Notes under the pieces: model-generated
Databases searched by the model: none
What the model was told of the DNA's origin: nothing
The model's input: the letters and a program-made list of their open reading frames with translations, nothing else
Translations under genes and position numbers: made by a program
Origin: Promethearchaeota archaeon
Lineage (GTDB): Archaea; Asgardarchaeota; Lokiarchaeia; Sigyniarchaeales; SOKP01
DNA: 64,000 nucleotides
Direction: 5' to 3'
Assembly (NCBI GenBank): GCA_019057865.1
Contig: JAHLWP010000021.1
Coordinates: forward strand, 1-64,000
In this document: positions 44,470 to 60,686 of the stretch, one piece after another
Layout: each line of letters opens with the position of its first letter
Numbering within the stretch: position 1 is the stretch's first letter

Positions 44470-45927
44470 TTATCCCCAAAATGGTTTCCAGCGATTCCAT
44501 ATATCCCATCGCTGTATATTTTTTATGTTATACCAGACTGCTTTTTGTCTATATCTACTTTTTAAGATTTTATAAATTTGGTGGGAGATGTAGCGGGGTC
44601 GCTGCATAAACTTTCTATGAGTTTCTTTTATACGTGCCATTAGTTCACTCAAAGGTATATTAAGAATAGCAGTACCAACTTCCCAACATTCATCCGGGTT
44701 AATTCGCTTTGCATCTACCATCTGATCCCAAATCCAATTTCCGGGAATTATGCCTAAAATATGAAATTGTGGAAAATCAATATCTAATTTAAGTGATAAA
44801 TTAAATGTATCAATTATTTCCTCACGTGTCTCAATTGGCGCACCCACTATAAAATTTGCTAGAATAATATCAATCCCAACTTTTTTCGAATTTTTTATTG
44901 CATCATAGACTTGATTTAGTGTAATCCTTTTATTGTACCAGTCTAAGACTCTTTGTGAGCCACTTTCGACGCCATAACTAATAATCTTGCAGCCCATATG
45001 TTTCATTGCAGTCAGAAGCTCCCTTGAGCTCTGAGTTACCCTCCCCTCAGCCATCCACTTTAAATCTATCTTTTCTTTTCTAATTAAATAAGATAGTTCC
45101 ATTAATCTTTTTTTACTTATAGTAAAGTTATCATCAACCCAATACAAATTTTGATAACCTTGATTCTCGAGAAGAGAAAGTTCTTCTACTATATTTTTAG
45201 GAGATCTTGGGCGCCATCTGCCCCAAAACATAGCGCTTGAGCAAAATGTACATTGAAATGCACAACCTCTTGAAGAAGAAGCAGTGGCAAAATTTCCTAG
45301 CGAAATATCAAGACCTTCTACTTCACTTTTATATTCTACATTTCCTAATAATTTCCTATTTGGAAATGGAAGTGTGTCAATATTTTCTATAAGGGGTCTA
45401 TCTTCATTTCTAATAATTCTACCATTATTTCGATACGACACACCTCTTATATCTTCAAAGCCATGACCTTTTTCAGTTTTTTCAGCAATTTCTAAAAGAG
45501 TGTTTTCCCCTTCTCCTCTAATGCAAGCATCAATGAATGGGTACTTATTTAATATTCTGGTATCATTGAAAGTTGCGTGATAATTCCCAAATAAAATCTT
45601 AACATTCGGATTTATTTCTTCCTTTACTCTTTTAGCAATTTCTGCTGATGTAATTCCAGTTCCTGAGGTGGTTATCGTTGAAAAACCTAAAATATCTGGA
45701 TCTTCGTGTTTTATCCGCTTTAGAGTATCATTAATCGAAGCCCCCCTAGCGAATTGATCATATATAGATACATCAAAATTATTTTCGCTTAGATAAGTAG
45801 CGAGGTATAGTATCCCCATTGGCGGAAATCCATAAAAATCTATTTTTTCTTTGACATACTGTTCGGCATCTTTAACGGAAAAAAATCCTTTTTCAGGTGG
45901 CTTTGGGAAAATTAAAGATACTTTCAA
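44470..45927 (-). CDS. B12-binding radical SAM enzyme 1
   Basis: A 485-residue class B radical SAM protein of the BchE/MpnM-like group. The N-terminal cobalamin-binding domain (about 1-150) has PPMGILYLATYL and GNYHATFND, and the radical SAM core carries the triad CAFQCTFC after SSRG. The C-terminal part contains the VGAPIETREEI and FPQFHILGIIPG segments. Such enzymes methylate or cyclise unactivated carbons. The target is unknown; with the divergent paralogue and the glycan genes it may modify a surface polymer or lipid. Confidence 0.88.
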   Translation of the reverse strand: MKVSLIFPKPPEKGFFSVKDAEQYVKEKIDFYGFPPMGILYLATYLSENNFDVSIYDQFARGASINDTLKRIKHEDPDILGFSTITTSGTGITSAEIAKRVKEEINPNVKILFGNYHATFNDTRILNKYPFIDACIRGEGENTLLEIAEKTEKGHGFEDIRGVSYRNNGRIIRNEDRPLIENIDTLPFPNRKLLGNVEYKSEVEGLDISLGNFATASSSRGCAFQCTFCSSAMFWGRWRPRSPKNIVEELSLLENQGYQNLYWVDDNFTISKKRLMELSYLIRKEKIDLKWMAEGRVTQSSRELLTAMKHMGCKIISYGVESGSQRVLDWYNKRITLNQVYDAIKNSKKVGIDIILANFIVGAPIETREEIIDTFNLSLKLDIDFPQFHILGIIPGNWIWDQMVDAKRINPDECWEVGTAILNIPLSELMARIKETHRKFMQRPRYISHQIYKILKSRYRQKAVWYNIKNIQRWDIWNRWKPFWG

Positions 45928-46124: not shown

Positions 46125-47585
46125 ATGAAAATAATTGATAAAAAAATCCAAAAAGTAGCGTTAGTAAATCCCAATTTTATTACAAAAAGCATTACAGATA
46201 AATTTACAATCCCTGCTTTAGGATTAGAATATCTTGCTGCTAATATTTTAGATTTAGCTGAAGTGAAGATAATTAATGGTAAAGTAAGGAATTTAAACCT
46301 CAAGGAAATTATGGAGGAAATTAATGAATTTAACCCAGATATTGTTGGAATTTCATGTTGTTTAACAACAGGAGTTAATTTTGCCTTAGAAATAGCAAAA
46401 GAGTCAAAAAAACTTGGATATTCAATCGTATTAGGGGGGTGGCATCCTAATTTTGCACCTTCTGAAGTTTTAAAATATCCATTTGTAGATATTATTGTCC
46501 GAGGAGAGGGAGAAGTCACCTTTCGGGAATTAATCGAAAACAAAAATCTAGAAAATATAAAAGGAATATCATATAAAAACAATGGGAGTATTATAAACAA
46601 TCCAGATCGCCCATTAATCAAAGATTTAAATAAACTACCATTTCCTGCAAGGGAATTAAGAAATAAAAAGTCTTATTTTCAAATCTTTCAGATGCCTATA
46701 GATGCGATTGAGACATCAAGGGGTTGCCTATTTAAATGCACTTTCTGTAATATTCATCTTTTTTATCGAGGAACCTATAGAACAAAAAGTCCAGAACGGG
46801 TTATTCAAGAGTTAAAAATTATTACAAATGGAAAAAAACATATAAATGTAATGATTGTGGATGATAATTTCACAACAGATATTAAAAGAGTAGAGAAAAT
46901 TTGTGATTTAATAATCAAAGAAGGAATTAAAGTGGATTTAACTTGTCAAAGTCGCATTGATGTTATAAAAAAGAATCCAAATGTAATCAAAAAAATGTCT
47001 AAAGCAGGGTTTTGGTGTTTTTTCCTTGGTATTGAATCATTTAACCAAAAATCTTTAAACAGTATTCAGAAAAGAGTTCAATTACGGGATATTTTTGAAG
47101 CAATTAAAATACTTCATGATAACGATATAGTAATAATTGGCAGTATGTTGGTGGGTTCAAATCTTGATGAGGAAGAGAAAGATACTGATTTAATGATAAA
47201 GGTTGTTAAAAAGTTAGGAATAGATTTTCCGTTATATTCGGTAATGACACCTTTACCAGGCACGAAATTCAGAGATGTATTGATCGAAAAAGATTATCTG
47301 CTATCTCATAATTGGAGTGAATACAATTTTACCACAGCAGTAAATCGATTAAATAAACTTTCAAAGGAAAAGTTAGACCAACTTTTATCTAAGGCATATT
47401 ATTATGGATATTTTCATAGGGGGTGGAAAGATACTTTTATGAGATTATATAGGAAAAAAGGAATTAATTTATTTTTAAATACAAGAAAATTTAGAGCTAT
47501 TAAGAATCTTTTAGGTTTTTTTAGAAGTATTAGAAGAATGAAAAATGAAATAGATTCAATATCCCCTACCATAAAATTTAATTGA
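46125..47585 (+). CDS. B12-binding radical SAM enzyme 2
   Basis: A 486-residue paralogue of the divergent 44470-45927 gene with the same plan: B12 domain (about 1-150, with PALGLEYLAANIL and GGWHPNFAPSE), radical SAM core with CLFKCTFC after ETSRG, and a long C-terminal basic tail. The two are about 200 bases apart and divergent. It is likely to act on a related substrate, perhaps a lipid precursor. ATG 46125 lies in an AT-rich leader. Confidence 0.88.
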   Translation: MKIIDKKIQKVALVNPNFITKSITDKFTIPALGLEYLAANILDLAEVKIINGKVRNLNLKEIMEEINEFNPDIVGISCCLTTGVNFALEIAKESKKLGYSIVLGGWHPNFAPSEVLKYPFVDIIVRGEGEVTFRELIENKNLENIKGISYKNNGSIINNPDRPLIKDLNKLPFPARELRNKKSYFQIFQMPIDAIETSRGCLFKCTFCNIHLFYRGTYRTKSPERVIQELKIITNGKKHINVMIVDDNFTTDIKRVEKICDLIIKEGIKVDLTCQSRIDVIKKNPNVIKKMSKAGFWCFFLGIESFNQKSLNSIQKRVQLRDIFEAIKILHDNDIVIIGSMLVGSNLDEEEKDTDLMIKVVKKLGIDFPLYSVMTPLPGTKFRDVLIEKDYLLSHNWSEYNFTTAVNRLNKLSKEKLDQLLSKAYYYGYFHRGWKDTFMRLYRKKGINLFLNTRKFRAIKNLLGFFRSIRRMKNEIDSISPTIKFN

Positions 47586-47652: not shown

Positions 47653-48804
47653 ATGTTAAGCATTACACATAAATCGAAAAATCAATCTTTTCAATTGCCA
47701 ATATCAGGATATTTGGGATATACTATAAGTAAATTTTTTCATTTATGTACACCTATTACTTTTCTTCATGAGAGATTTGAAACTATAACATTATTTAATG
47801 ATATCCGTAAATTGAAAATAAATAAACCTATTTACATTACTGGTCTCGCTCGTGCAGGAACAACCATCGTATTGGAAATGTTAAGTAAGCACCCAGATTT
47901 AGCAACACATCAATATAAGAATCTTCTTATACCATATTTCCCTAATTGGTTATATAAACTTACCAATAAGGTTAGGCTTTTTTCAAAACCGACTGAAAGG
48001 ATTCATAAGGATGGTATAATGGTTACGCGTGATAGTCCCGAAGCAGTAGAGGAGATATTCTGGAGAAAATATTTTAAGCACACGAGTACTGAAAAATCTT
48101 CACATATAATAAATGGGAACATAATAAACCCCAAATTTGAGAGATTTTATCCAAATCATATCCGAAAGCTCTTAATTGCCCAAAAGCGTTCTCGTTATTT
48201 AGCAAAAAACAACTACAATATCACTAGATTGGAGTATTTGCTACGAATTTTCCCATCTACCAAATTTTTACTAATTATTCGTAATCCAGTAAATCATATT
48301 GCTTCATTAATTAAACAAACAAAACTTTTCATGAAGATGGAAAATCAAATACCTCTTTTACAAGATTGGTTGAAAATCCTAGGGCACCAGGAATTTGGCC
48401 ATCATAGCATTTGTATAAATGTAAATAACACAGAATCAATTCATAAAATTCGTAAATTGTGGAGCAATAAAAAAACATATGTAAAAGGATGGGCATATTA
48501 TTGGGTGTCCATTTACGATTTTATTGCCGATAGTCTTGAAGCAAATGAAAAACTCAGAAGTGCGACCTTTATAGTTAATTATAATGAATTATGCGAAAAC
48601 CCAGCAGATATTATTGATAGAATACTTGAACATACTGAACTGCCCTTAGATAAATTTCTGAAAGTTAGAGAATATTATATTAATCATTTACATAAACCCA
48701 CCTATTATTCTCCTGACTTTTCTGAACAAGAACTCTCAGATATTTACGAGATTACAAAGGACACTGCTTCTCGATTTGGATTAAAAATTTCTTTAGGCAA
48801 TTAA
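47653..48804 (+). CDS. sulfotransferase-family protein
   Basis: A 383-residue PAPS-dependent sulfotransferase-fold protein. The 5'-phosphosulfate loop is ITGLARAGTTIVLEML, and the 3'-phosphate region reads FLLIIRNPVNHIASL with Arg and Ser in place. It probably sulfates a carbohydrate or lipid. It follows radical SAM gene 2 in the same direction by about 70 bases, and its last 12 bases overlap the convergent deacetylase gene. Confidence 0.85.
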   Translation: MLSITHKSKNQSFQLPISGYLGYTISKFFHLCTPITFLHERFETITLFNDIRKLKINKPIYITGLARAGTTIVLEMLSKHPDLATHQYKNLLIPYFPNWLYKLTNKVRLFSKPTERIHKDGIMVTRDSPEAVEEIFWRKYFKHTSTEKSSHIINGNIINPKFERFYPNHIRKLLIAQKRSRYLAKNNYNITRLEYLLRIFPSTKFLLIIRNPVNHIASLIKQTKLFMKMENQIPLLQDWLKILGHQEFGHHSICINVNNTESIHKIRKLWSNKKTYVKGWAYYWVSIYDFIADSLEANEKLRSATFIVNYNELCENPADIIDRILEHTELPLDKFLKVREYYINHLHKPTYYSPDFSEQELSDIYEITKDTASRFGLKISLGN

Positions 48805-49539
48805 CTGTTTTAAAGTTATGAATTCCGCTTTTCTAGCTAGAGATTCCACAATAAAACCACGTAATGTTTCTAAAAATGTATTTCCTGTATGAAGCCAACG
48901 ATCTAGTCTAAATAAAATATTTTTTATTGTTTCAAACTTACTTGCATGCTTACGAATTAAATTTTTCATATTTATTGCTTCACAAGGATGAAAATATAAT
49001 ATAAGTAATTCATTTTTAAAGATCTTCCGTTTTAGAAAAGGATAAGGTAATCTCAAATAGATACTATATTTTGAAGGGTGAAATTCTTGGATTTTTTTGT
49101 TATCTATTTGGTAATGTGGTAATTTCTTGGGTGATACAATCGAGGAATCGTATCTAAATCCTAAATTACTTAATATTTCAAATAAAAATTTTGGTGGTTT
49201 TAAATAAGGAGCTCGAAAACCGATAATCTCTGAATTTTGACAAGTTTCTTCTAGAACCTTTTTATTCTGATAAATTACATCTTGGCATTTAATAAAATCT
49301 AAGAGATTTAATCGTTCATGAGTTAAGCCATGACAAGCAATTTCATGACCTTTTTGCTCGATTTGTCTTATATACTCTGGTAGATGCTCAACGACATTTC
49401 CAGTACAAAAAAAAGTCCCCTTGACATTGAAATTATCTAAGATATCCAATATTTTCAATAATCCAATTTCCACGCCGAAATAGGTATCCAAAACATTAGG
49501 AAGATCCCTTTCAATATCAAAAGTCAGTGCAATCTTCAT
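48793..49539 (-). CDS. polysaccharide deacetylase (NodB-like)
   Basis: A 248-residue NodB-homology carbohydrate esterase (CE4). Motif 1 TFDIERD (Asp-containing), motif 2 CHGLTHERL with the HxxxH metal pair, and motif 3 GFRAPYLKP are seen. The TFDIE form rather than TFDDG resembles the subgroup acting on exopolysaccharide or lipid-linked sugars. It removes N-acetyl groups. Oriented towards the sulfotransferase gene. Confidence 0.88.
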   Translation of the reverse strand: MKIALTFDIERDLPNVLDTYFGVEIGLLKILDILDNFNVKGTFFCTGNVVEHLPEYIRQIEQKGHEIACHGLTHERLNLLDFIKCQDVIYQNKKVLEETCQNSEIIGFRAPYLKPPKFLFEILSNLGFRYDSSIVSPKKLPHYQIDNKKIQEFHPSKYSIYLRLPYPFLKRKIFKNELLILYFHPCEAINMKNLIRKHASKFETIKNILFRLDRWLHTGNTFLETLRGFIVESLARKAEFITLKQLIA

Positions 49540-49672
49540 TATTTACGCAATAATCTTTGAGATATAAAATTTTATTTAAAAGCATTGTTATTAAATTTTA
49601 TTTAAAAGCATAAAACTGAAAAATTTATTAATAATTTCAATATTTAATTTCAGAAAAGTAGATTAAAAAACA

Positions 49673-50788
49673 ATGCGAGTTTTAATATTAGGTGCTGGGA
49701 TTACTGGGTGCACATTGGCAAGACTGATGAAAGATAAGGATTATCTTGTTTCAATTAAGGAAAAACAAGATCATATTGGAGGATTATGTTATACAAAAAC
49801 AAATCCTAACGGAATTTTATATGAGCCCTATGGTGGACATGCATTTCACACTAAAGATAGTCGTATTAAAAAGTTTGTTCTTAATTTTTCAGAGTTTAAT
49901 AATTACATTCACAGAAAGGGGATTTTTATCAATGGTGTATTGTGGCATTTTCCTCTCAGTAAGAAGACTATTTTTGAGATGGAAAGGAGCGAAAAAATTC
50001 TTAAGGAATTAGAAGAACGACCAACTACTCCTGATTTAACTAATTTTGAAACATTAGCTATTTCTCAATTTGGAAATACTTTATATAGATTATTTATTTA
50101 TAATTACTCCAAGAAAATGTGGGGTGTAGAACCCAAAGAATTAACAACTGAATATATCCAAAATCGTATTACACTGAAAGACTCTAATACTCAGTTATTT
50201 GAAGATAATTTTCAAGGACTACCTGTTAAAGGATATACAAAATTCCTTAGAAATATGATACATGACATCCCCATTGAATTAAATACTAGTGAATTTGACG
50301 AGTCTTTGTATGATCTCATTTTATACTCAGGTCGAATAGATGAACTATTTAAATTTAAATTTGGAATTTTACAATTTAGGTCTTTACGATTTGACTATAA
50401 GGAAAATGATGTTTGGGAAAATGATAATTATGGTTCAATTAACCTCCCTCAACATGCGAAATATATACGAAAAGTAAATTTTAAAATTATGTATCAACAG
50501 AAAATAAATAAATCATGGATCCAATATCAAGAACCGATATCATTCAATAATAATATGCCAATGTATCCAATATATACTAAACAAAATATTGAATTATTTG
50601 ATAGATATCTTATTGAAGCTTGCAAGTCTAACAAAATTATTCCCGTTGGTCGTTTGGGATTATGCAAATATTTAGAAATGGGTCAAGCTATTTCTTTAGC
50701 AATGAATATGATTCTTTTAATAAAAAAATGGAAAAAATTAAGCCCTAAAAATAGATATCTTGAAATTAAGAAGCTATTAAATAATTAA
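49673..50788 (+). CDS. UDP-galactopyranose mutase-like flavoprotein
   Basis: FAD-binding protein of 371 residues. The dinucleotide loop LGAGITG, the IGGLCYTKTNPNG and YGGHAFHT segments, FRSLRFDYKE and the C-terminal GRLGLCKYLEMGQAI follow the UDP-galactopyranose mutase fold, which interconverts pyranose and furanose forms of UDP-galactose. Some residues usual in the true mutase (the Tyr-Tyr-Asp of the final motif) are changed here to Cys/Leu/Glu, so the sugar substrate may differ or the activity may have been altered. Possible role in furanose-containing glycans. Confidence 0.78.
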   Translation: MRVLILGAGITGCTLARLMKDKDYLVSIKEKQDHIGGLCYTKTNPNGILYEPYGGHAFHTKDSRIKKFVLNFSEFNNYIHRKGIFINGVLWHFPLSKKTIFEMERSEKILKELEERPTTPDLTNFETLAISQFGNTLYRLFIYNYSKKMWGVEPKELTTEYIQNRITLKDSNTQLFEDNFQGLPVKGYTKFLRNMIHDIPIELNTSEFDESLYDLILYSGRIDELFKFKFGILQFRSLRFDYKENDVWENDNYGSINLPQHAKYIRKVNFKIMYQQKINKSWIQYQEPISFNNNMPMYPIYTKQNIELFDRYLIEACKSNKIIPVGRLGLCKYLEMGQAISLAMNMILLIKKWKKLSPKNRYLEIKKLLNN

Positions 50789-50803
50789 TAAGTCTAATTC
50801 TAG

Positions 50804-51574
50804 CTATAATTGTTTCTTCCAATTAATATCTTTTGCTAAATTATAAAAAATGTCTTTTTTTGAATGGTATTGGACAACACGTCCTAAACTACGACGAGTG
50901 CTTAAATATCTTCCACTTGTTAACACTGAAATAAAATTTAGAGTTTTAATTTTACCCTTTTTCATAATTCTACTTAGATATATTAACGAATCTGAGAATA
51001 CCTTGTCAATTCCCATTAAATTTGGCGGTAGTTGCTTAAATCCACCAACTTTAAAAAATATATCTCTTCTAACAATTATATTACACCCTAAAAGTTCAGG
51101 ATATCCAAGTAAAGTTTTAAAAAAATACCATAAGTGCATACTAAAGTTAAGAAAAAAATAGATCGTTATAGTAAATATCTGGGAACCCAAATTAAATGTA
51201 ATGGCTCTTCCATCATAATATTTAACTCTGGCACTACAAGCAAAAAGATTTTTATGTTTCTCAAAGATTCTATAGACTTTTTGTAAGAAATATGGATCTA
51301 TTAACGTATCTGCATCTAAAAATACAAGTAAATCACCAGAAGTTTTAGGTACAACAAAATTTAATTGAGATGACTTTCCTCTTTTTGGTGATATATACAC
51401 TTCTGCAAATTCTTTTGCTAAAGAAACGGTTTTGTCAGAGCTTTGTCCATCAACTACAATAATTTCATAAGGAATGTTGCAATTTTGCCTTTTAACGGCT
51501 GTTAATGCTTTTATTATGTGTGTCTCTTCATTATAGGTGGGAATAATAACTGAAATTTTTGGTTTATAATTCAT
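50804..51574 (-). CDS. family 2 glycosyltransferase
   Basis: GT-A fold inverting glycosyltransferase (256 residues). SVIIPTYNEET at the nucleotide-sugar site, VVDGQSSDKT, and the metal-binding DAD in VFLDADTLID are GT2 signatures; a hydrophobic stretch around residues 140-165 suggests membrane association. It probably adds one sugar to a growing glycan or lipid. Convergent with the UGM-like gene, 15 bases apart. Confidence 0.9.
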   Translation of the reverse strand: MNYKPKISVIIPTYNEETHIIKALTAVKRQNCNIPYEIIVVDGQSSDKTVSLAKEFAEVYISPKRGKSSQLNFVVPKTSGDLLVFLDADTLIDPYFLQKVYRIFEKHKNLFACSARVKYYDGRAITFNLGSQIFTITIYFFLNFSMHLWYFFKTLLGYPELLGCNIIVRRDIFFKVGGFKQLPPNLMGIDKVFSDSLIYLSRIMKKGKIKTLNFISVLTSGRYLSTRRSLGRVVQYHSKKDIFYNLAKDINWKKQL

Positions 51575-51685
51575 TTTAATTTTATCTATAACAATTGAGA
51601 ATAGAAAACCTATTTATTATTCTAAAATGATTTCATATTATTCTATAAAAATTTCAAAAGCATTAAAAAATTAATTGATTTTAGA

Positions 51686-52801
51686 ATGTCTAAAGCTTCC
51701 GGTAAAACGAAATTTTTTACTAAGGGATTCATAATTTCATTTATTTTTTTAATCTTAAGTTCTACAATTATCATTTTATTTATAATAAATAGAATTTTTT
51801 TTTCAATTTCATGGATTGATACAATTTATGATTATATAGCACCACTATTATCAAAAATTTTCTATAAATATAATATCTACGTCTATGGTGGAATTTTAAT
51901 CGCTTTTGTGTTTCTACTTCCATTATTTGTATTAGGATATAACCTAGCAAAAACGAGACAATTAACTGGGTCAATTTTGTATATTTTTAGTTTATTAGGA
52001 TTCGTAATGATTATTTTCATAGCATCTTATTATACCTATTTTAGTATCTTATTTAATCAAGATTTAACTCTAAATACCAGGTTATTGCTATTCTTACTTT
52101 TTTTACCAATTAATTTTACATTGAGTTTAATCTTGTTTCTTGTAAATATAGATTTCATCATTTTTTTTAAGGATTTGGTTAAAGCAAGGAAAATTTGGAA
52201 GCACAAAAGACCTAAATTTGAAATTGAAGTTAAAGGTAAAATAACTAATATCAATATAGAAACGGATGAATTTATTTTCACACCTGTACCAATGTTAATT
52301 ATTGCGAAATATCTTCAAACTAAAGGTTTTTCTGTATCGTGGTTTGTAAGAGGCGCTTTTAATCATTTAATATCTTTAGTTATTACATATTTGACAGGCT
52401 GGCCACGAGCTAGAAATGTATTATTTCGACTTACCGGAATGAAAATAGGTAAAAATTGTCATATTTCTCAAAAAGCAATACCTGATCCACTCTTACCAGA
52501 ATTAATTGAATTTGAAGATGGTAGTGGCTGTGGTATTGGTACAAAATTATTAACCCATAATGCAATGAATATAAAACATGGACGCTTCAGTTTTGGGCCT
52601 ATTAAAATTTGTAAAAATGCAAGAATAGGAGCATACTCACTTGTATTACCTGGAGTTACAATTGGTAAAGGATCGATTATTGGAGCACATTCAGTAGTAG
52701 CAGATGATATTCCACCATATTCTATCGCACATGGTTCACCAGCTAAAGTAGTACGGCGATTAACTGATGATGAAAAAAAGGAAGTAAATAAAAAATATTA
52801 G
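51686..52801 (+). CDS. membrane-anchored left-handed beta-helix acyltransferase
   Basis: A 371-residue fusion: four or five membrane helices in the first 165 residues, a linker, then a hexapeptide-repeat domain (about 225-360) with RNVLFRLTGMKIGKNC, ARIGAYSLVLPGVTIGKGSIIGAHSVV, read here in parts (PGVTIGKGS, GAHSVV), and the final GSPAKVVRRL that closes the coil. Such domains transfer acetyl or other acyl groups to sugars. Membrane anchoring suits acylation of a lipid-linked glycan. Starts at ATG 51686. Confidence 0.83.
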   Translation: MSKASGKTKFFTKGFIISFIFLILSSTIIILFIINRIFFSISWIDTIYDYIAPLLSKIFYKYNIYVYGGILIAFVFLLPLFVLGYNLAKTRQLTGSILYIFSLLGFVMIIFIASYYTYFSILFNQDLTLNTRLLLFLLFLPINFTLSLILFLVNIDFIIFFKDLVKARKIWKHKRPKFEIEVKGKITNINIETDEFIFTPVPMLIIAKYLQTKGFSVSWFVRGAFNHLISLVITYLTGWPRARNVLFRLTGMKIGKNCHISQKAIPDPLLPELIEFEDGSGCGIGTKLLTHNAMNIKHGRFSFGPIKICKNARIGAYSLVLPGVTIGKGSIIGAHSVVADDIPPYSIAHGSPAKVVRRLTDDEKKEVNKKY

Positions 52802-52890
52802 ATCAAAATTATCTAATTAAAATTTTAAAAAAATCTCAAGAACAAACTTTTTTAAGTAAATAAAATAAATTATAGAATGGGTGAATTAGT

Positions 52891-54075
52891 ATGGCATCCG
52901 AAATAATGCTTAGTGATATAAGGACTGAAGTAGAAGCAACTTCTAATGATTGTAAACTATATAAACAAATCTGTGAAGAAAAAGAATATGATTTTGATCA
53001 GACAATTAAAGGATCAAATCTTGATGAAATACCTTATGTAAATTGGAATTATTTTAAAGAATCAAATAAAAAATTTCAGGAATTATTACGAATTCCTTAT
53101 AATGAATTATCATATTGGACAATTAGTTCATCTACATCCGGAGATCCAAGTCTAGTAGGAAGAGATGCTGAAGACATTGAAGTATTTAAAAATAATTATC
53201 GAAAAGTATTTGAAGAATATTCAAAAATGCGCTTAATTAAACGCTTAATTTTATTTGCGCCATCAATTGAATTTATGAATAAAATGCCAGGAAGCTGGTT
53301 AGGAAAACGAGGTTTTCTTTTTTATCGAGATATTGCAGATATTTGGAAAAATTATGAGATAGATTATTTATTGAAATTTAAAGTTTGGAAGGTTCTTCTC
53401 TACTTAATTAGTCATTTTAAGGCAAAAGCATTTATCGAAATAAATGGAAAATTGATGGTGAAAAGTCTTAAAGAGGTAGAACACCAGAAAACCCCTACAT
53501 TAATCGCTAATTCAGTCCCTCTAATGTATCAAAATTTTGTAGATTATTACAAGAAACATAAAAAAGGCTTTAATATGCCTGAAACTTTCAGAATTCAGCT
53601 TGGAGGTGGAGGATGGAACGGTATAAAAGGGAGAGTAAAACTTGAGCATAAAATAGATAAAGTGGACTTTATGGAAAAGATGTCTGGTTTTTTCAACATC
53701 CCATATGATAATATTACAGATAATTATGGTGCAACTGAAGTTCCAATTGCTTGTGGTGGTCATTGGAGTAAAAATTATGAGGATTTTCTATTTCATATTG
53801 ATAAAGATGAAGCTTATATAATCATCCGTGATATAGAAAATCTCGAAAGAATTAAAAAAACAAAAGAACCCGGTATAATAGAGGTATTAACCCCTTATGG
53901 TGTTAAATCCTATGCTGGTGTTGCTGTCATGCTTGATGATATAGTTGAAATAGTAGATTTTAACAAATGTGTTGAATGTGGTAGAGAAGGATTAGTATTT
54001 AGAATAACAGGAAGAATGACACCAGAAATTGGAAAAGGATGTAGTTCTTTTACGAATTTGTTCCCTTTTAAATAA
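52891..54075 (+). CDS. LuxE-like acyl-activating enzyme 1
   Basis: A 394-residue adenylate-forming protein of the LuxE/PaaK-like superfamily. The phosphate-binding loop SSSTSGDPS (79-87), NYGATEVPIACGGHW, and a C-terminal CVEC (360-363) then GRM...GKGC (Cys384) are visible. LuxE of luminous bacteria activates fatty acid as acyl-AMP and moves it to a C-terminal Cys; the position of Cys384 fits that acceptor. A paralogue sits convergently downstream. With no LuxC or LuxD in the window, transfer to a glycan or lipid in this cluster is the likely use. Confidence 0.8.
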   Translation: MASEIMLSDIRTEVEATSNDCKLYKQICEEKEYDFDQTIKGSNLDEIPYVNWNYFKESNKKFQELLRIPYNELSYWTISSSTSGDPSLVGRDAEDIEVFKNNYRKVFEEYSKMRLIKRLILFAPSIEFMNKMPGSWLGKRGFLFYRDIADIWKNYEIDYLLKFKVWKVLLYLISHFKAKAFIEINGKLMVKSLKEVEHQKTPTLIANSVPLMYQNFVDYYKKHKKGFNMPETFRIQLGGGGWNGIKGRVKLEHKIDKVDFMEKMSGFFNIPYDNITDNYGATEVPIACGGHWSKNYEDFLFHIDKDEAYIIIRDIENLERIKKTKEPGIIEVLTPYGVKSYAGVAVMLDDIVEIVDFNKCVECGREGLVFRITGRMTPEIGKGCSSFTNLFPFK

Positions 54076-54193
54076 AGGGCTTCTCATTTTTTGTCTAATA
54101 ATTAGTATAATAGCGCTATTTATTCTTTTTGATGATCATGGCTACATATGGACAAAAATTAGAGAAAAACCCTAATAAAAATAAGTGGAGAAA

Positions 54194-55495
54194 TTAGTGA
54201 AGCCAATCTATTATAGAAGAACAACTTCTACCTTGAGCATCCGTTAACCTTCCAATTACTCTAAATGTAGCACCTTCATAACCACATTCTGGACATTTCC
54301 TTTTTGAAATAAGCTCTACAATATCGTCAACTAGAACTGCTTGATTTATGCTACCATTTACACCATAAGGAGTAATTACTTCGAGTAAACCTTCCATACC
54401 ATCATTTACTGGTTCTAACTTATCTAGATCTCTTACTATAATCCTGGCAGTATCAGGGCAATGTAATAAGAAATCTTGGTATTTTTCAGACCAATGTCCT
54501 CCAAAGAGAGTCGGACCCTCTGTAAATGCATAAATATCTGCAATATCTTTCGATTTAATGTTAAAAACTTTTTCATAATTTTCAATAAATTTAACTTTTT
54601 CTACTGCGTCTAACTTTGCTTCACCCTTAACGCCATCCCATCCTCCACCACCGCAACCAACGAAAGCTTTTCCATCAAGATCAAAAAAAATGTTTTCTTT
54701 TAATAATCTTTTCTCAAACATATTATTCATTAAAAGTGGACTCCCACCAAATATAATTTTGCTCACTTCTATTCCTTTCCAATGTCCAGTTTTTAGAATT
54801 GTTTTAACCATTTTCAGCATTTTACTTACATCTAAAATAAAACCCCCTCTTATTGAAAGAGATGAAATTATTGCCCCAATTGTTTTTAAAATTTTTCCTT
54901 TTATCATATATTCCTCATGCCCATAATATTCCCATGGTTTATTCATACATGCTGTGAAGTAGCGTGTTTTTTTAACATGTTCAAATCCTTTAGCATTTTT
55001 TTTCGCCATAAATGACATCATTAAACGATTTGGTGCAAAATTAAAAACAAGACATCTTTTGGGACCAACTTTTAAGTCCTTCCATCTAAAAAACTCTGTA
55101 AAAACTTTAATTGAATTATATTGTATCTGGTCAAAATCCTCTACTGTTCGAGGAACTATTGAGGGATCTCCTGTTGTAGAAGACGAACATGAAAATAATA
55201 CAATTTTATCAATAGGTACTTTTAGAAGTTGTGAGGTTCGACCTTCTGATTTTTTATAAATGTCAGTAGGAGTATATGGGATTGTTTCCAAATTATCGAT
55301 TGTTAAATCCTCTGGAATTGTAAAATCGAACTTCTTACAAAAGTTTTCTTTGTAATAAGTACAATTATTATAGGATAACTTTATTTGATCTAGCAAATCT
55401 TTGCAAAATTTTTCATCTGGGTAAGGAGTTGGTTTAAAATCAAAATATTTTGTCTGTAATTCTTCAGGTAAATAATCATGTGCTTTAAATACCAA
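54194..55495 (-). CDS. LuxE-like acyl-activating enzyme 2
   Basis: A 433-residue paralogue of the convergent 52891 gene: the loop SCSSSTTGDPS near residue 102-112, the IYAFTEGPTLFGGHW motif, the CPEC pair (401-404) and GRL...GRSC with Cys425 at the same distance from the end. The presence of two homologues suggests two acyl substrates or a heteromeric complex. It is transcribed away from the radical SAM genes and faces paralogue 1. Confidence 0.8.
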   Translation of the reverse strand: MVFKAHDYLPEELQTKYFDFKPTPYPDEKFCKDLLDQIKLSYNNCTYYKENFCKKFDFTIPEDLTIDNLETIPYTPTDIYKKSEGRTSQLLKVPIDKIVLFSCSSSTTGDPSIVPRTVEDFDQIQYNSIKVFTEFFRWKDLKVGPKRCLVFNFAPNRLMMSFMAKKNAKGFEHVKKTRYFTACMNKPWEYYGHEEYMIKGKILKTIGAIISSLSIRGGFILDVSKMLKMVKTILKTGHWKGIEVSKIIFGGSPLLMNNMFEKRLLKENIFFDLDGKAFVGCGGGGWDGVKGEAKLDAVEKVKFIENYEKVFNIKSKDIADIYAFTEGPTLFGGHWSEKYQDFLLHCPDTARIIVRDLDKLEPVNDGMEGLLEVITPYGVNGSINQAVLVDDIVELISKRKCPECGYEGATFRVIGRLTDAQGRSCSSIIDWLH

Positions 55496-55597
55496 AAAAA
55501 TGACCTAATTTCGAAATTTTTTGTATTAATTTAAAGAATTACAGTCTAATAATTAAATCTTATCCGATATCTATATTAAAAAAAAGTAGAAAATAAA

Positions 55598-56950
55598 TTA
55601 TTTTGTAGATAAAGCTACTATTTCTGCTTCTTGTCTTTCAAATAACATTGGTGTTTTTTCCCAACTTAAATCTTTAGGAAGTTTAAATTGACGTAAAAAC
55701 ATATAAAGATGAATAAAGCCACTTATTGGAAAAAATAATAAAAGACTGTAATGTTTATCGCAATATTTTCGTATCGCATTGAATATAAATCCAAATTGAA
55801 AGATCAAGCAGAAAAGGCTCCAACTTAGTAAATAAAATTCTCCAATCATAAAATAAAATATTGCAAAACCAATTATAATAGGGATCCACGTATCCAAATT
55901 CGCTATAACCATCATTGTCATATTTCTGGAGATAATTAGTGATTTCCCATTCTTTTCTTCGCTTTTCATTTGCATTAATTTTGGCATATCAAAAATAAAT
56001 CCTGCAAGCCAGCGTGTTCGTTGTTTTACTAAAATCTCCCAAGTATTTGGCACATATTCATAAATTTTTGCCTTGGGCGAAAAGTAAATTTTTACACCAT
56101 CTAAATTTAAAAGCACAGAAAGATATAGATCTTCTGTCATTGAATCTTCATTAAAACCTTCATACTTCAATAAATATTTCGTCCGAACAGCAAAATTTCG
56201 CCCAAATGAATAAGCTGATGACCCTAATCTGTTTTTAATTTCAAATAATAATCCGCCTCCAGAAACAATAGAATAATCAAGAAAGATACCTTTAGTCAAT
56301 TTATTATCTTTCCAATTTTTAACTAAAACAGGACCTATAACTGCATTATACTTATCATCTTGAAATGGTGAGATTAAATGTTTTAATGTATCTGGTTGTA
56401 AAATACAACCTGCATCATAAAGGACAACAATATCATTTTTTACATATTTTAAGCCATAATTCAGGGCTGGAGGTTTTCCCTTTTTAGGAAGATCCTCTGA
56501 TAACACTTCTATATCTATTGTGTTATGCTCTTTTGCAAAATTTCTACAAAATTCTGATGTATCATCTGTTGATCCACTTGTAATTACAATTATTTGGATG
56601 TTTTCTTCAGGATAATTTGACTCAATAATCGATTTTAAAGTTCTTTCTAATAATATTTTTTCATTTTTACAAGCAATTAATATACTTATATTTGTATAGT
56701 AAGGTGTTTTGGTTCGATAACCTTTCCCAAATGACGCTAAGAAATGTATTCCATAAAAAATAACAAATCCTAACAACATTATTAGACCAATTAATGGAAA
56801 TATGAACCACCAGTAAGTTAAAGGGTTAAGAATGAATCTATCAATTGCTCTTTTTACTCCAGATGACCAGAAAGGTGGAAAATATATGTGTAGTAGCACA
56901 AAAACTATTACCCATACTGATCCATATAACAAATATCTTGAGATTTTCAT
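55598..56950 (-). CDS. membrane family 2 glycosyltransferase (chitin/hyaluronan synthase-like)
   Basis: Processive-type membrane glycosyltransferase, 450 residues: two N-terminal helices, a GT2 catalytic domain (ILIACKNEKILLERTLKS, ITSGSTDDT, LYDAGCIL, TEDLYLSVLL, KQRTRWLAG) and three or four C-terminal helices. The Asp-x-Asp is DAG here, and the QxxRW motif of processive synthases is KQRTRW, retained. It may extrude a polysaccharide or glycosylate a lipid. The next gene upstream overlaps its operon by a 4-base gap. Confidence 0.88.
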   Translation of the reverse strand: MKISRYLLYGSVWVIVFVLLHIYFPPFWSSGVKRAIDRFILNPLTYWWFIFPLIGLIMLLGFVIFYGIHFLASFGKGYRTKTPYYTNISILIACKNEKILLERTLKSIIESNYPEENIQIIVITSGSTDDTSEFCRNFAKEHNTIDIEVLSEDLPKKGKPPALNYGLKYVKNDIVVLYDAGCILQPDTLKHLISPFQDDKYNAVIGPVLVKNWKDNKLTKGIFLDYSIVSGGGLLFEIKNRLGSSAYSFGRNFAVRTKYLLKYEGFNEDSMTEDLYLSVLLNLDGVKIYFSPKAKIYEYVPNTWEILVKQRTRWLAGFIFDMPKLMQMKSEEKNGKSLIISRNMTMMVIANLDTWIPIIIGFAIFYFMIGEFYLLSWSLFCLIFQFGFIFNAIRKYCDKHYSLLLFFPISGFIHLYMFLRQFKLPKDLSWEKTPMLFERQEAEIVALSTK

Positions 56951-56954
56951 TTTT

Positions 56955-57890
56955 TCATTCTCCTTTATTTTTATCCATTTTTTTTAAATTTTTCCAAATA
57001 TAATTAGCAAAAAGAATCACTGAAAGGGTCATAATAGCTAAAAGACTGATTTGATAAGTCAACATTGACCAAGTTATTATCCACTCGTGCGATGCAGACC
57101 ATATTGCTGTAGCATCGGGATTGATCAAATGTGTTATCAATACCACAAGACTAGAAGTACCATAGAGTGCAAAAAATGTAGTGATTAATAAGATTCGCGT
57201 TATTCTCTCACCAACAAACGGTTTTGTTTCATGTAAACCTAAACCTTCATGTCTTGCTCTCATATACTCATAAATAAATATCAGTAAGATATTGGTCCAA
57301 ACCATCCATGCAAAATCGAATCCATTCGATAAAACCACTAAATTAGTAGGAACTAAACATACCAACATTAATGTATCGCTTACTCTATCAATCACATTAT
57401 CTAACCAAGCACCACTTTTAGATTTTATATGCAATAACCTTGCTATTGCTCCATCAATCCCATCAATAACTCCTGTAAATAGTACTAAAGCAGCAAGAGC
57501 AAAAAACCAAGAGCCATAGCCTAGTTGGTCAGAAAATAAATCTAATGTGTGACCCTTACTAGCCATTATAACACCATAAAAGATGAGAAATGATAAAATT
57601 AAATTCATAAAAGATACCAAATTTGGAGTTAAGCCCCATCTTATAAAGATTTTTGCTCCGTGATATGTTGCAGGCATATAAAGTTTACCAGCGGGATCCT
57701 TTTTCATTTGTGCAAATTGTTCTTCTAACTTATGAGCTTGTCCATGATCATTAAGCCAATCTTTTATGAATTCATCCAAACTCATAAAATCTTGTTTTGG
57801 TTTTTTATTAAAGAGTCCACTAATGAAAATAATTAAAAGAATCCCTAGTAAAACTAGCGGAAATACTATCTCAAATATTAGATTTGTCAT
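56955..57890 (-). CDS. CDP-alcohol phosphatidyltransferase family membrane enzyme
   Basis: A 311-residue membrane protein with the complete CDP-alcohol signature DGIDGAIAR-x8-G-x3-D-x3-D: Asp143, Asp146, Gly147, Ala150, Arg151, Gly160, Asp164, Asp168. It transfers a polar alcohol (for example inositol-phosphate, glycerol-phosphate or serine) to a CDP-archaeol. About seven helices follow a soluble 70-residue N-terminus. It is in an operon with the GT2 gene downstream, pointing to the synthesis and then glycosylation of a lipid headgroup. Confidence 0.88.
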   Translation of the reverse strand: MTNLIFEIVFPLVLLGILLIIFISGLFNKKPKQDFMSLDEFIKDWLNDHGQAHKLEEQFAQMKKDPAGKLYMPATYHGAKIFIRWGLTPNLVSFMNLILSFLIFYGVIMASKGHTLDLFSDQLGYGSWFFALAALVLFTGVIDGIDGAIARLLHIKSKSGAWLDNVIDRVSDTLMLVCLVPTNLVVLSNGFDFAWMVWTNILLIFIYEYMRARHEGLGLHETKPFVGERITRILLITTFFALYGTSSLVVLITHLINPDATAIWSASHEWIITWSMLTYQISLLAIMTLSVILFANYIWKNLKKMDKNKGE

Positions 57891-58072: not shown

Positions 58073-59422
58073 TTGAAGAACCTTGAACCTTTTTTTAACC
58101 CAAAAAGTATCTTAATTGTAGGCGTTTCAAGGAAAGCTTATACTTTTAGTTATACTGTATTGAAAAACCTTTTAGAGATTTTTTATCAAGGCAAACTCTA
58201 CATATTAAACCCAAATGCTAATGAGGTATTAGGTGTTAAATCCTATCATTCTTTAGAAGAATTACCTGAAATTCCAGAACTAGCAGTAATAGTTTTAGGT
58301 ACGAAAATATTAGACATTGTGGAAGAATTAGGGAAGTATGGTGTAAAATATGTAACAATTCAATCTGAATTAAAAACAGGAATTAATGATACTGATTTAA
58401 CATTAAAATTGCATAAAGTCTGTGAAAAATATGGGATAACATATTTAGGACCTTCAATGATAGGAATTATTAACTTTATTGATAACTTTACGACATCAAT
58501 TATTCCTGTTAGACAACATATAATGCGAGAAAATAAGAACATAACAGAGGGTATAGGTTTCATAGCACAATCTGGAGGGTTAGCAGGTGCTCTAGGGTGG
58601 TGGACTCCTTCACAAAAATTACCCATATCAAAAGTTGTACACTTAGGAAAAGGCTTTCACGTTAGTGAACAAGATATTATTGAATTCTTTCTTAATGATA
58701 AAACAGTCAAAGTTATTTCTTTGTTTTTAAGGGAAATTTCGGATGAATTAATAGACGCAGTAAAGAATGTCTCTCTATATAAACCTGTTCTTTTCTTTTA
58801 TGTAGGAAAAGATGAATTAAAAGAAAAAGAATTAGAAAAAGCAGGAGGAATATCAGTATTAAATTATATTGAGCTTTTTGAGATAGCTAAGATATTCTTA
58901 TGGTGTCCGGAGCCTAAGGGTCCCAATTTAGGGATTATTGGACCTAGTTCTGGTGCAATTCATCTAATTGTAAAAGAAATGAGAAAACAACATTTATCTT
59001 TGGCAAAGCCAGATAAAGAATCTCAAGACATAATTATAAATAAAATAGGTGGCTCTACTTGCGCATATGGTAACCCTGTTGATTATTGGCCCCCAGAGAA
59101 ATTTATAGGTATTAAAATCTGTGGTATATATAATACATCTGCCTCTACCTTATTAAAAGACGAACATGTTGATGGATTAATTATTGCCTTGGAATTTTTT
59201 ATTGAAATTGAATTTGATTTTAATATATTTGATAGTATAAGAAGAACAAATCCAGATAAACCAATTATCGCAATTCTTATACAAGCTGAACATGAAGGAG
59301 CCAAACGAGTATTCAAATCTGCTTCTGAGATAAAGATTCCCGTCTTTGAAAATGAAATAGAGCGCGCTGTACGAGGATATAGATTGTTATATGACTATTA
59401 TTCAAAAATAAAAAAGAAATAA
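58073..59422 (+). CDS. acyl-CoA synthetase (ADP-forming) alpha-like protein lacking the phospho-His loop
   Basis: A 449-residue protein with the CoA-binding Rossmann domain (PKSILIVGVSRKAYTF) and the two succinyl-CoA-ligase-like flavodoxin domains (TYLGPSMIGIINF, IAQSGGLAGALGWW, NPVDYW) of ADP-forming acetyl-CoA synthetase alpha. The stretch that normally carries the catalytic His in a SHTGALAG-type loop is shortened to KDELKEKELEKAGGIS, with no His, so activity as an acyl-CoA synthetase is doubtful. No ATP-grasp beta subunit is near. TTG start at 58073 after AGGTAG. It may be regulatory or bind CoA. Confidence 0.75.
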   Translation: MKNLEPFFNPKSILIVGVSRKAYTFSYTVLKNLLEIFYQGKLYILNPNANEVLGVKSYHSLEELPEIPELAVIVLGTKILDIVEELGKYGVKYVTIQSELKTGINDTDLTLKLHKVCEKYGITYLGPSMIGIINFIDNFTTSIIPVRQHIMRENKNITEGIGFIAQSGGLAGALGWWTPSQKLPISKVVHLGKGFHVSEQDIIEFFLNDKTVKVISLFLREISDELIDAVKNVSLYKPVLFFYVGKDELKEKELEKAGGISVLNYIELFEIAKIFLWCPEPKGPNLGIIGPSSGAIHLIVKEMRKQHLSLAKPDKESQDIIINKIGGSTCAYGNPVDYWPPEKFIGIKICGIYNTSASTLLKDEHVDGLIIALEFFIEIEFDFNIFDSIRRTNPDKPIIAILIQAEHEGAKRVFKSASEIKIPVFENEIERAVRGYRLLYDYYSKIKKK

Positions 59423-59432
59423 AAAAATTAGC

Positions 59433-60686
59433 TTAAGAAAAAATTTCCTTTAGTTCTTCAGGTACCTCATCTGATTCATCCATTAAGGAAAGAGCATAGA
59501 TAACTTCTCCACATTTACACTCTTTTCCCTCAAATAAGTAAAATCTAAACTGATTTTTCCAATTGCAAATTTGAACATTACTAATATTAGCAACATCACC
59601 ACAAAGACAAAATATTGCCAAATTTGGCGAATAAGCTGGAATTATTGTCTTGAAATCTTGGGGTGCTTTGCTAAATTCACATTCATTTAACATATCATTA
59701 ATTTTTTCCGCTAAAGTATCTTTTAGAGTTGGAATAAAGCTATTTATTATTCCACTGCTCCCTTTCATTTCTGTAAGAACAATGAAATTTTTTTCGCGCT
59801 TTTCTGCTTTAGCTTTTTCTGGAAAAATTGGCTGTTGGTATTGCAGAAGGTTCTCAGGTACAGGAATTGGTTCCACATCAGGAGGATAATCAAAAGTATA
59901 GAAAAATTGATTAGTACCTTTTACACTTTTATGGCTAATCATTTTTAGATTTTCATAATCTCTACTAGATAATGTAAATTTTATCAATTGAAGTGGAACT
60001 TTCAATTCAAGAAGTTTTGATCTGACATTATCTAAGACTTCGCCTGCAAAACTTTTTAGAATCACAATATCTTCTCTATTCTCTGCATACATCTGATTTT
60101 TATTTTGCTCTTTAAATTTAAACCATTTTTTAACAACACTTCCCTTTATCAATTGAGGAACCATACAAAACACACATAAGAGTGGAAAGATAAAGAAGAG
60201 GATTCCCTCTATAAATGATAACCCAATGATAAGAACAAACATAGGGATTAAAAGTAAGAAAGTTAACTTCCGTAATCGCTTATCCATTGATGATTTAATT
60301 CCTTTGCTAAATGCAAGCTCTTCAGAATTAGATTTTAATTTTTTTACAATTTCAATAATTTCTTTTGATTCAAAGCTTTGTACCAATAATTTATCTTCTT
60401 CCCCTGCTTTAAAAGTTGTCATGTGACTTCCTATTTGATTAATATATTGACCTATGGCACGTTCTTTATAGATAAAATCTAAGGTCTCTTCAGAAAAATA
60501 ATCTAAAAATCGTGCTATAAAAAGTTTTTTCTCAACATCTTGGATGGCTGTTGGACTTAAACCAAGAGCTTCTTGAATCAGTTGACCCTGCGTTTTTCTA
60601 ACCTGTTTTTTAGATCTTCTCTTTTCTTCAGTTTGCGTTTTTGAAACTTCAGATTCTACTTCTTTATCGCTATCAGTTTCACTCAT
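59433..60686 (-). CDS. hypothetical membrane protein
   Basis: A 417-residue protein with a charged, coiled N-terminus (1-35), a helical region, two membrane helices at about 140-160 and 163-183 and a large soluble C-terminal part with Cys-x-Cys-G (CKCGEV) near residue 395. It does not look like a known family. It converges with the CoA-binding gene and diverges from the 60886 membrane gene. ATG 60686. Confidence 0.6.
   Translation of the reverse strand: MSETDSDKEVESEVSKTQTEEKRRSKKQVRKTQGQLIQEALGLSPTAIQDVEKKLFIARFLDYFSEETLDFIYKERAIGQYINQIGSHMTTFKAGEEDKLLVQSFESKEIIEIVKKLKSNSEELAFSKGIKSSMDKRLRKLTFLLLIPMFVLIIGLSFIEGILFFIFPLLCVFCMVPQLIKGSVVKKWFKFKEQNKNQMYAENREDIVILKSFAGEVLDNVRSKLLELKVPLQLIKFTLSSRDYENLKMISHKSVKGTNQFFYTFDYPPDVEPIPVPENLLQYQQPIFPEKAKAEKREKNFIVLTEMKGSSGIINSFIPTLKDTLAEKINDMLNECEFSKAPQDFKTIIPAYSPNLAIFCLCGDVANISNVQICNWKNQFRFYLFEGKECKCGEVIYALSLMDESDEVPEELKEIFS

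Follow-up and report, generated by a model that had tools for sequence, protein, structure and literature searches.

LuxE is the fatty-acid-loading enzyme of glowing bacteria. Two LuxE-like genes lie side by side in a 64,000-nucleotide stretch of DNA from a Promethearchaeota archaeon (contig JAHLWP010000021.1, positions 1 to 64,000; this whole stretch is hereafter called the window), which raises the question of what such enzymes might load, and onto what, in an archaeon. An initial annotation of the window had proposed that they acylate a glycan or lipid headgroup through an acyl group held on the enzyme as a thioester. Here we compare the two proteins, their paralogues and their gene neighbourhoods across Asgard archaea.

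Two LuxE-type proteins with a conserved C-terminal cysteine

The gene for protein A (394 aa) is located at 52891..54075 on the forward strand and that for protein B (433 aa) at 54194..55495 on the reverse strand. Both reading frames are open and, as originally annotated, convergent, with 118 bp between them. The two proteins exceeded the gathering score of the LuxE family PF04443 (cut-off 24.9 bits) with 65.2 bits (E = 6.4e-18) for A and 87.7 bits (E = 9.3e-25) for B, and no other Pfam family scored above its cut-off for either of them. A and B are paralogues sharing 35% identity (E = 2e-59).

A SSSTxGDPS motif occurs in both proteins, as SSSTSGDPS at residues 79-87 of A (53125..53151, forward strand; conserved in the alignments) and as SSSTTGDPS at residues 104-112 of B (55160..55186, reverse strand; S104, G109 and S112 invariant). 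The motif, which had been called P-loop-like, is the nucleotide-binding motif of the ANL superfamily and not a Walker P-loop. The adenylation-domain residues (SSST.GDPS, Y/F..TE, DD and GR) are conserved in the alignment of B, where S104, G109, E326 and D391 are invariant and T325 and G415 reach at least 90%. Their roles are presumably those of the corresponding residues in ANL enzymes. The annotated CxxC pair and C-terminal GR/Cys motif were found in both proteins. The former comprises Cys360 and Cys363 in A (53968..53979, forward strand) and Cys401 and Cys404 in B (54284..54295, reverse strand), the first Cys of each pair being invariant and the second nearly so, and the latter reads GRMTPEIGKGCSS in A and GRLTDAQGRSCSS in B.

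The predicted acyl-accepting residues are Cys384 of A (codon at 54040..54042, forward strand) and Cys425 of B (codon at 54221..54223, reverse strand), which are followed by only ten and eight residues, respectively. Their column did not vary among homologues: it was invariant in alignments of 39 and 35 sequences, which include a LuxE encoded next to LuxC, and the tail Cys was seen in all inspected homologues whose sequence extends to the C-terminus, in members without LuxC and in LuxC-adjacent members alike. Homologues at contig edges or otherwise cut (e.g., L099 and L112) end before this position. A profile alignment placed the tail Cys of A and B on Cys364 of the solved LuxE structure 7XC6. 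Cys364 of Photobacterium phosphoreum LuxE is given as the mapped acyl-transfer site in PMC8301110, which cites Soly and Meighen 1991. The invariant column and its alignment with Cys364 indicate that the Cys motif is more than a chance occurrence. In the AlphaFold models of A (mean pLDDT 89.5) and B (mean pLDDT 87.1), the last 14 residues of A (381-394) and the last 12 of B (422-433), each including the Cys, are disordered. A disordered, Cys-bearing tail in otherwise confident models fits a flexible-arm mechanism.

LuxC, acyl carrier proteins and the origin of the clade

The genome that contains the window (G000; 4.26 Mb, 99.67% complete) encodes three LuxE-family proteins: besides A and B there is one further paralogue, C. 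The initial annotation had noted that LuxC is missing next to A and B, and this absence extends to the entire genome, as no PF05893 match was obtained anywhere in G000. Likewise, no acyl carrier protein (ACP; PF00550) was detected in G000 or in any of 18 relatives from the same genus. A marginal ketoacyl-synthase-like match (PF00109, 6e-4) was present in G000, and thiolase-like or CoA-based chain synthesis may take place in this organism. Neighbouring LuxE and LuxC genes were found in eight relatives (G012, G021, G023, G026, G027, G029, G033 and G036); in G027 and G033 a small PF00550 match of 85 aa lies ~3-4 kb from the pair.

A tree was built from 62 proteins, comprising 19 rows of A, 21 of B, 14 of C and 8 of LuxC-adjacent LuxE. 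A, C and the LuxC-adjacent LuxE each formed one side of a branch, and three distant members interrupted B. The 54 rows of A, B and C formed one Asgard clade that was split from the LuxC-adjacent LuxE with a support of 99/100. Contamination with bacterial DNA was ruled out by the recurrence of this clade in 34 Asgard genomes with conserved neighbourhoods. The closest sequence outside the clade was the LuxE of G026, which is encoded beside LuxC in the same type of cluster with a CDP-alcohol transferase, a GT2 glycosyltransferase and a peptidase U32-family gene; its placement (support 92/70, on a long branch) is not firm. This position suggests that the ancestor of A, B and C was a LuxE paired with LuxC in a cluster of this type and that the reductase was subsequently lost.

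If the ancestral pathway was reductive, as the setting of the G026 pair would allow, an aldehyde dehydrogenase other than LuxC, encoded elsewhere in the genome, could still reduce the acyl-S-enzyme, and the resulting aldehyde or alcohol would be built into a lipid. Several relatives indeed contain weak scorers against the LuxC model, although these are probably generic aldehyde dehydrogenases. Reduction nevertheless appears rather unlikely, given that LuxC is absent from 26 of the 34 genomes with A, B or C, that LuxC, where it co-occurs with them, adjoins its own classical LuxE, and that the neighbourhoods compared revealed no oxidoreductase conserved next to A or B.

Paralogue C (L051, G000:C29) is located near corrinoid methyltransferase-type and MTHFR genes, and the same setting was observed in G005:C88. 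No glycan setting surrounds C in G000, and several copies of A and B, too, stand outside the glycan cluster. Hence, the acceptor of these enzymes is not necessarily a glycan.

A conserved glycolipid-type gene cluster

All neighbours named in the initial annotation (a hexapeptide transferase, two GT2 glycosyltransferases and a CDP-alcohol transferase) were recovered by Pfam or NCBIfam matches. Directly upstream of B, a membrane GT2 resembling PgaC/NodC (55598..56950, reverse strand; PF13641, 2.2e-34; TIGR03937, 3.3e-31, under cut-off) is followed by a CDP-alcohol phosphotransferase resembling archaetidylinositol phosphate synthase (56955..57890, reverse strand; PF01066, 4.7e-12; NF040950, 70 bits, under the cut-off of 180), beside which this GT2 is conserved and whose signature DGIDGAIAR...GAWLDNVID is intact. 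Upstream of A, a hexapeptide-repeat acyltransferase (51686..52801, forward strand; PF00132, 1.1e-10; NF058585, 77.6 bits, under the cut-off of 300) is preceded by a short GT2 (50804..51574, reverse strand; PF00535, 3.6e-28) and a protein similar to UDP-galactopyranose mutase (49673..50788, forward strand; PF03275, 6.9e-39; TIGR00031, 240 bits, cut-off 304). Farther from A are encoded a polysaccharide deacetylase of the NodB/XrtA type (48793..49539, reverse strand; PF01522, 1.6e-18), a sulfotransferase-like protein (47653..48804, forward strand; PF13469, 2.2e-19) and two B12-binding radical SAM proteins (46125..47585, forward strand, and 44470..45927, reverse strand), for which the best NCBIfam models were BchE/HpnR/HpnJ and BchE/HpnJ, respectively, all under cut-off.

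By profile, the region 47653-56950 resembles a Nod-factor set, comprising a NodB-like deacetylase (TIGR04243, 1.3e-17), a NodC-like GT2 (TIGR04242, 1.4e-11) and a NoeE-like sulfotransferase (1.8e-6), each under its curated cut-off. On the other side, the cluster is flanked in many genomes by two genes (58073-60686), one resembling the alpha subunit of ADP-forming acetate-CoA ligase and one encoding an uncharacterised 417-aa protein.

Co-occurrence was assessed in 228 Asgard genomes, in which A, B and C were sorted from classical LuxE by score. At least one of the three was present in 34 genomes and the CDP-alcohol transferase of the cluster in 28: both occurred in 26 genomes, only the LuxE-type protein in 8, only the transferase in 2 and neither in 192 (Fisher's test, p = 6e-25, a value inflated by shared ancestry). 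Within the window's own genus, both were found in 8 genomes, LuxE alone in 1 (a 58% complete genome), the transferase alone in none and neither in 10. The transferase-GT2 pair without any A, B or C was observed in G128 and G159. In the set of relatives, the hexapeptide transferase and the CDP-alcohol transferase were confined to exactly the same 14 genomes. The comparison of neighbourhoods that the initial annotation had called for revealed that the order CDP-alcohol transferase-GT2-B recurs in many Asgard genomes. With up to two inserted genes it was found in G000, G002, G003, G005, G013, G019, G020, G022 and G139 and, judged by coordinates, also in G136, G141 and G149, and B resides on a separate contig in G012, G147, G161 and G162. 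The transferase signature D..DG..AR...G...D...D was kept in 19 of the 24 copies examined, the others being distant or cut copies. A scan of genome contigs with two peptide patterns, which limit its reach, yielded 52 loci, none of them outside Lokiarchaeota, Helarchaeota and Sigynarchaeum. That A and B travel with glycolipid genes across Asgard archaea suggests that they may attach an acid to the glycolipid of this cluster.

The neighbourhoods also contained other recurrent genes. Peptidase U32-family genes adjoin LuxE copies in several Asgard genomes (L059:14636-16180, L146:6945-8399 and L045:9205-10563) and also adjoin the CDP-alcohol transferase in genomes without LuxE. In several genomes, B is followed by three tandem B12-binding radical SAM genes (L043:5759-10234 and L178). 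An aromatic prenyltransferase (PTase_Orf2, 1.4e-52) and SPASM radical SAM genes lie near a B locus (L045:11080-16523), and the gene next to B at L044:7960-8454 encodes a small protein carrying a zinc ribbon at its N-terminus, with related small proteins in several clusters.

Such U32 and tandem radical SAM neighbours, together with the part that RfbN plays in making tetronate for the O-antigen (PMC4772473), are what might be expected if the substrate were not a fatty acid but a small organic acid or hydroxy acid, which would be loaded and then modified as a thioester by the neighbouring enzymes before its transfer to the headgroup. We consider this unlikely, as these genes adjoin only some of the copies and the window itself contains no U32 gene and has its radical SAM genes at least 5 kb away.

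Relationship to PaaK-type CoA ligases

A search of the PDB with a profile of 39 homologues retrieved the LuxE structure 7XC6 first, with an E-value of 6.7e-18 over two stretches, whereas PaaK reached only 7e-6 and was restricted to an N-terminal stretch. 7XC6 was also the top PDB sequence match of B; A as a single sequence had no match in the PDB, and the match emerged with the profile. Neither protein belongs to the equivalog of the lux operon, as the scores of 21.4 bits (A) and 36.9 bits (B) against NF052244 were far under its cut-off of 550. Against the PaaK model TIGR02155 (cut-off 646.3), A and B scored 15.4 and 25.6 bits over the N-terminal ~100 residues only; FlxY also gave weak N-terminal NCBIfam matches. 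Apart from B itself, a search for PaaK-type CoA ligases in the same genome returned just one weak partial match.

In Foldseek searches, PaaK-type CoA ligases ranked top for both A and B (TM about 0.55-0.64) and 7XC6 was not among the best 50 rows. This ranking is expected, because the adenylating domain is common to the superfamily, and the fold alone thus cannot distinguish LuxE from PaaK. By manual count (MAFFT misaligned the C-terminal part with PaaK), the GR motif is followed by 20 residues in A and 17 in B, compared to ~108 in Escherichia coli PaaK, and neither AlphaFold model contains an ordered domain after GR. A and B are therefore devoid of the C-terminal domain seen in CoA ligases. 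That A and B are PaaK- or FlxY-like acyl-CoA ligases with an incidental C-terminal Cys is improbable despite the shared superfamily, the Foldseek ranking and the weak N-terminal matches, in view of the invariant Cys, the missing domain and PaaK scores of 15-26 bits confined to 100 N-terminal residues.

A possible route of acylation

By sequence, A and B are LuxE-family proteins with a conserved core and Cys, devoid of the CoA-ligase domain and linked to a glycolipid-type cluster in a genome without LuxC or ACP. It is quite plausible that they act as LuxE-like acyl-protein synthetases independent of LuxC, passing an acyl group from acyl-AMP via the tail Cys to a glycan or lipid headgroup with no reduction. 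ATP and a carboxylic acid would react to acyl-AMP in the ANL-type N-terminal domain, and the acyl group would then move to Cys384 of A or Cys425 of B on the short flexible tail; we infer these two steps from the conserved residues and the biochemistry of LuxE. From the Cys, the unreduced acyl group would be passed to a hydroxyl or amine of the headgroup. Gene linkage points to a glycolipid as the putative acceptor, which for B would be the product of the CDP-alcohol transferase and the membrane GT2 and for A that of the hexapeptide acyltransferase, the short GT2 and the UDP-galactopyranose mutase-like protein. The final transfer might be carried out by the hexapeptide protein or directly by the LuxE-like protein. 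As no ACP is detectable, an enzyme-held thioester would be a sensible acyl donor and could take the place of acyl-ACP. More tentatively, the locus may represent a carrier-free archaeal acylation system, in which free acids are loaded onto the enzyme's own C-terminal Cys and delivered to a surface glycan or a glycolipid of the inositol type, in place of a route through ACP, CoA and reduction by LuxC.

Acylation of Asgard lipids or glycans would require an ACP-independent route, and whether it takes place is relevant to the question of how membranes of the archaeal and the bacterial type came together as eukaryotes first evolved. A LuxE-type enzyme operating without a reductase would, if confirmed, mean that the acyl-S-enzyme itself is a usable acyl donor. 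The prediction is concrete, as it concerns one Cys in each of two small soluble proteins.

Comparison with known systems

LuxE of the lux operon (P. phosphoreum, Vibrio harveyi) and A/B have in common PF04443, an ANL-type core without the C-terminal domain of CoA ligases, and a C-terminal acyl-transfer Cys at the position of Cys364. A and B differ from it by the lack of LuxC in the genome, by scores of 21 and 37 bits against an equivalog cut-off of 550, by the CxxC motif and by their membership in an Asgard archaeal clade tied to a glycolipid-type cluster. PaaK resembles A and B in the fold of the adenylating domain, but continues for ~108 residues after GR instead of 17-20. The LuxE-LuxC pairs of Asgard archaea (G026:C133, G012:C28 and G021:C231) belong to the same family and possess the tail Cys, and that of G026 also shares the CDP-alcohol transferase-GT2 cluster; in contrast to A and B, these LuxE adjoin LuxC and fall outside the A/B/C clade. 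Searches of the open-licence literature did not turn up any publication about LuxE from Asgard archaea.

LuxE-family proteins in glycan clusters are already on record. RfbN of Vibrio cholerae contains a LuxE domain and serves the synthesis of the O-antigen tetronate (PMC4772473), and flagellin glycosylation islands of Aeromonas and Enterobacteriaceae encode LuxE with LuxC, an ACP and an AMP-ligase (PMC7874193, PMC4875605). As in the window, a LuxE-family protein is encoded there among acyl- and glycosyltransferases that serve a surface glycan. The proposed acylation via an acyl-S-enzyme gains from the LuxE architecture, the absence of LuxC and the tight cluster linkage, but its full novelty cannot be upheld. 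While the flagellin islands have the glycan-type cluster in common with G000, they carry LuxC and ACP, both of which G000 lacks. The present case is set apart by the lack of the two together, by its occurrence in archaea and by its close genomic association with a CDP-alcohol transferase.
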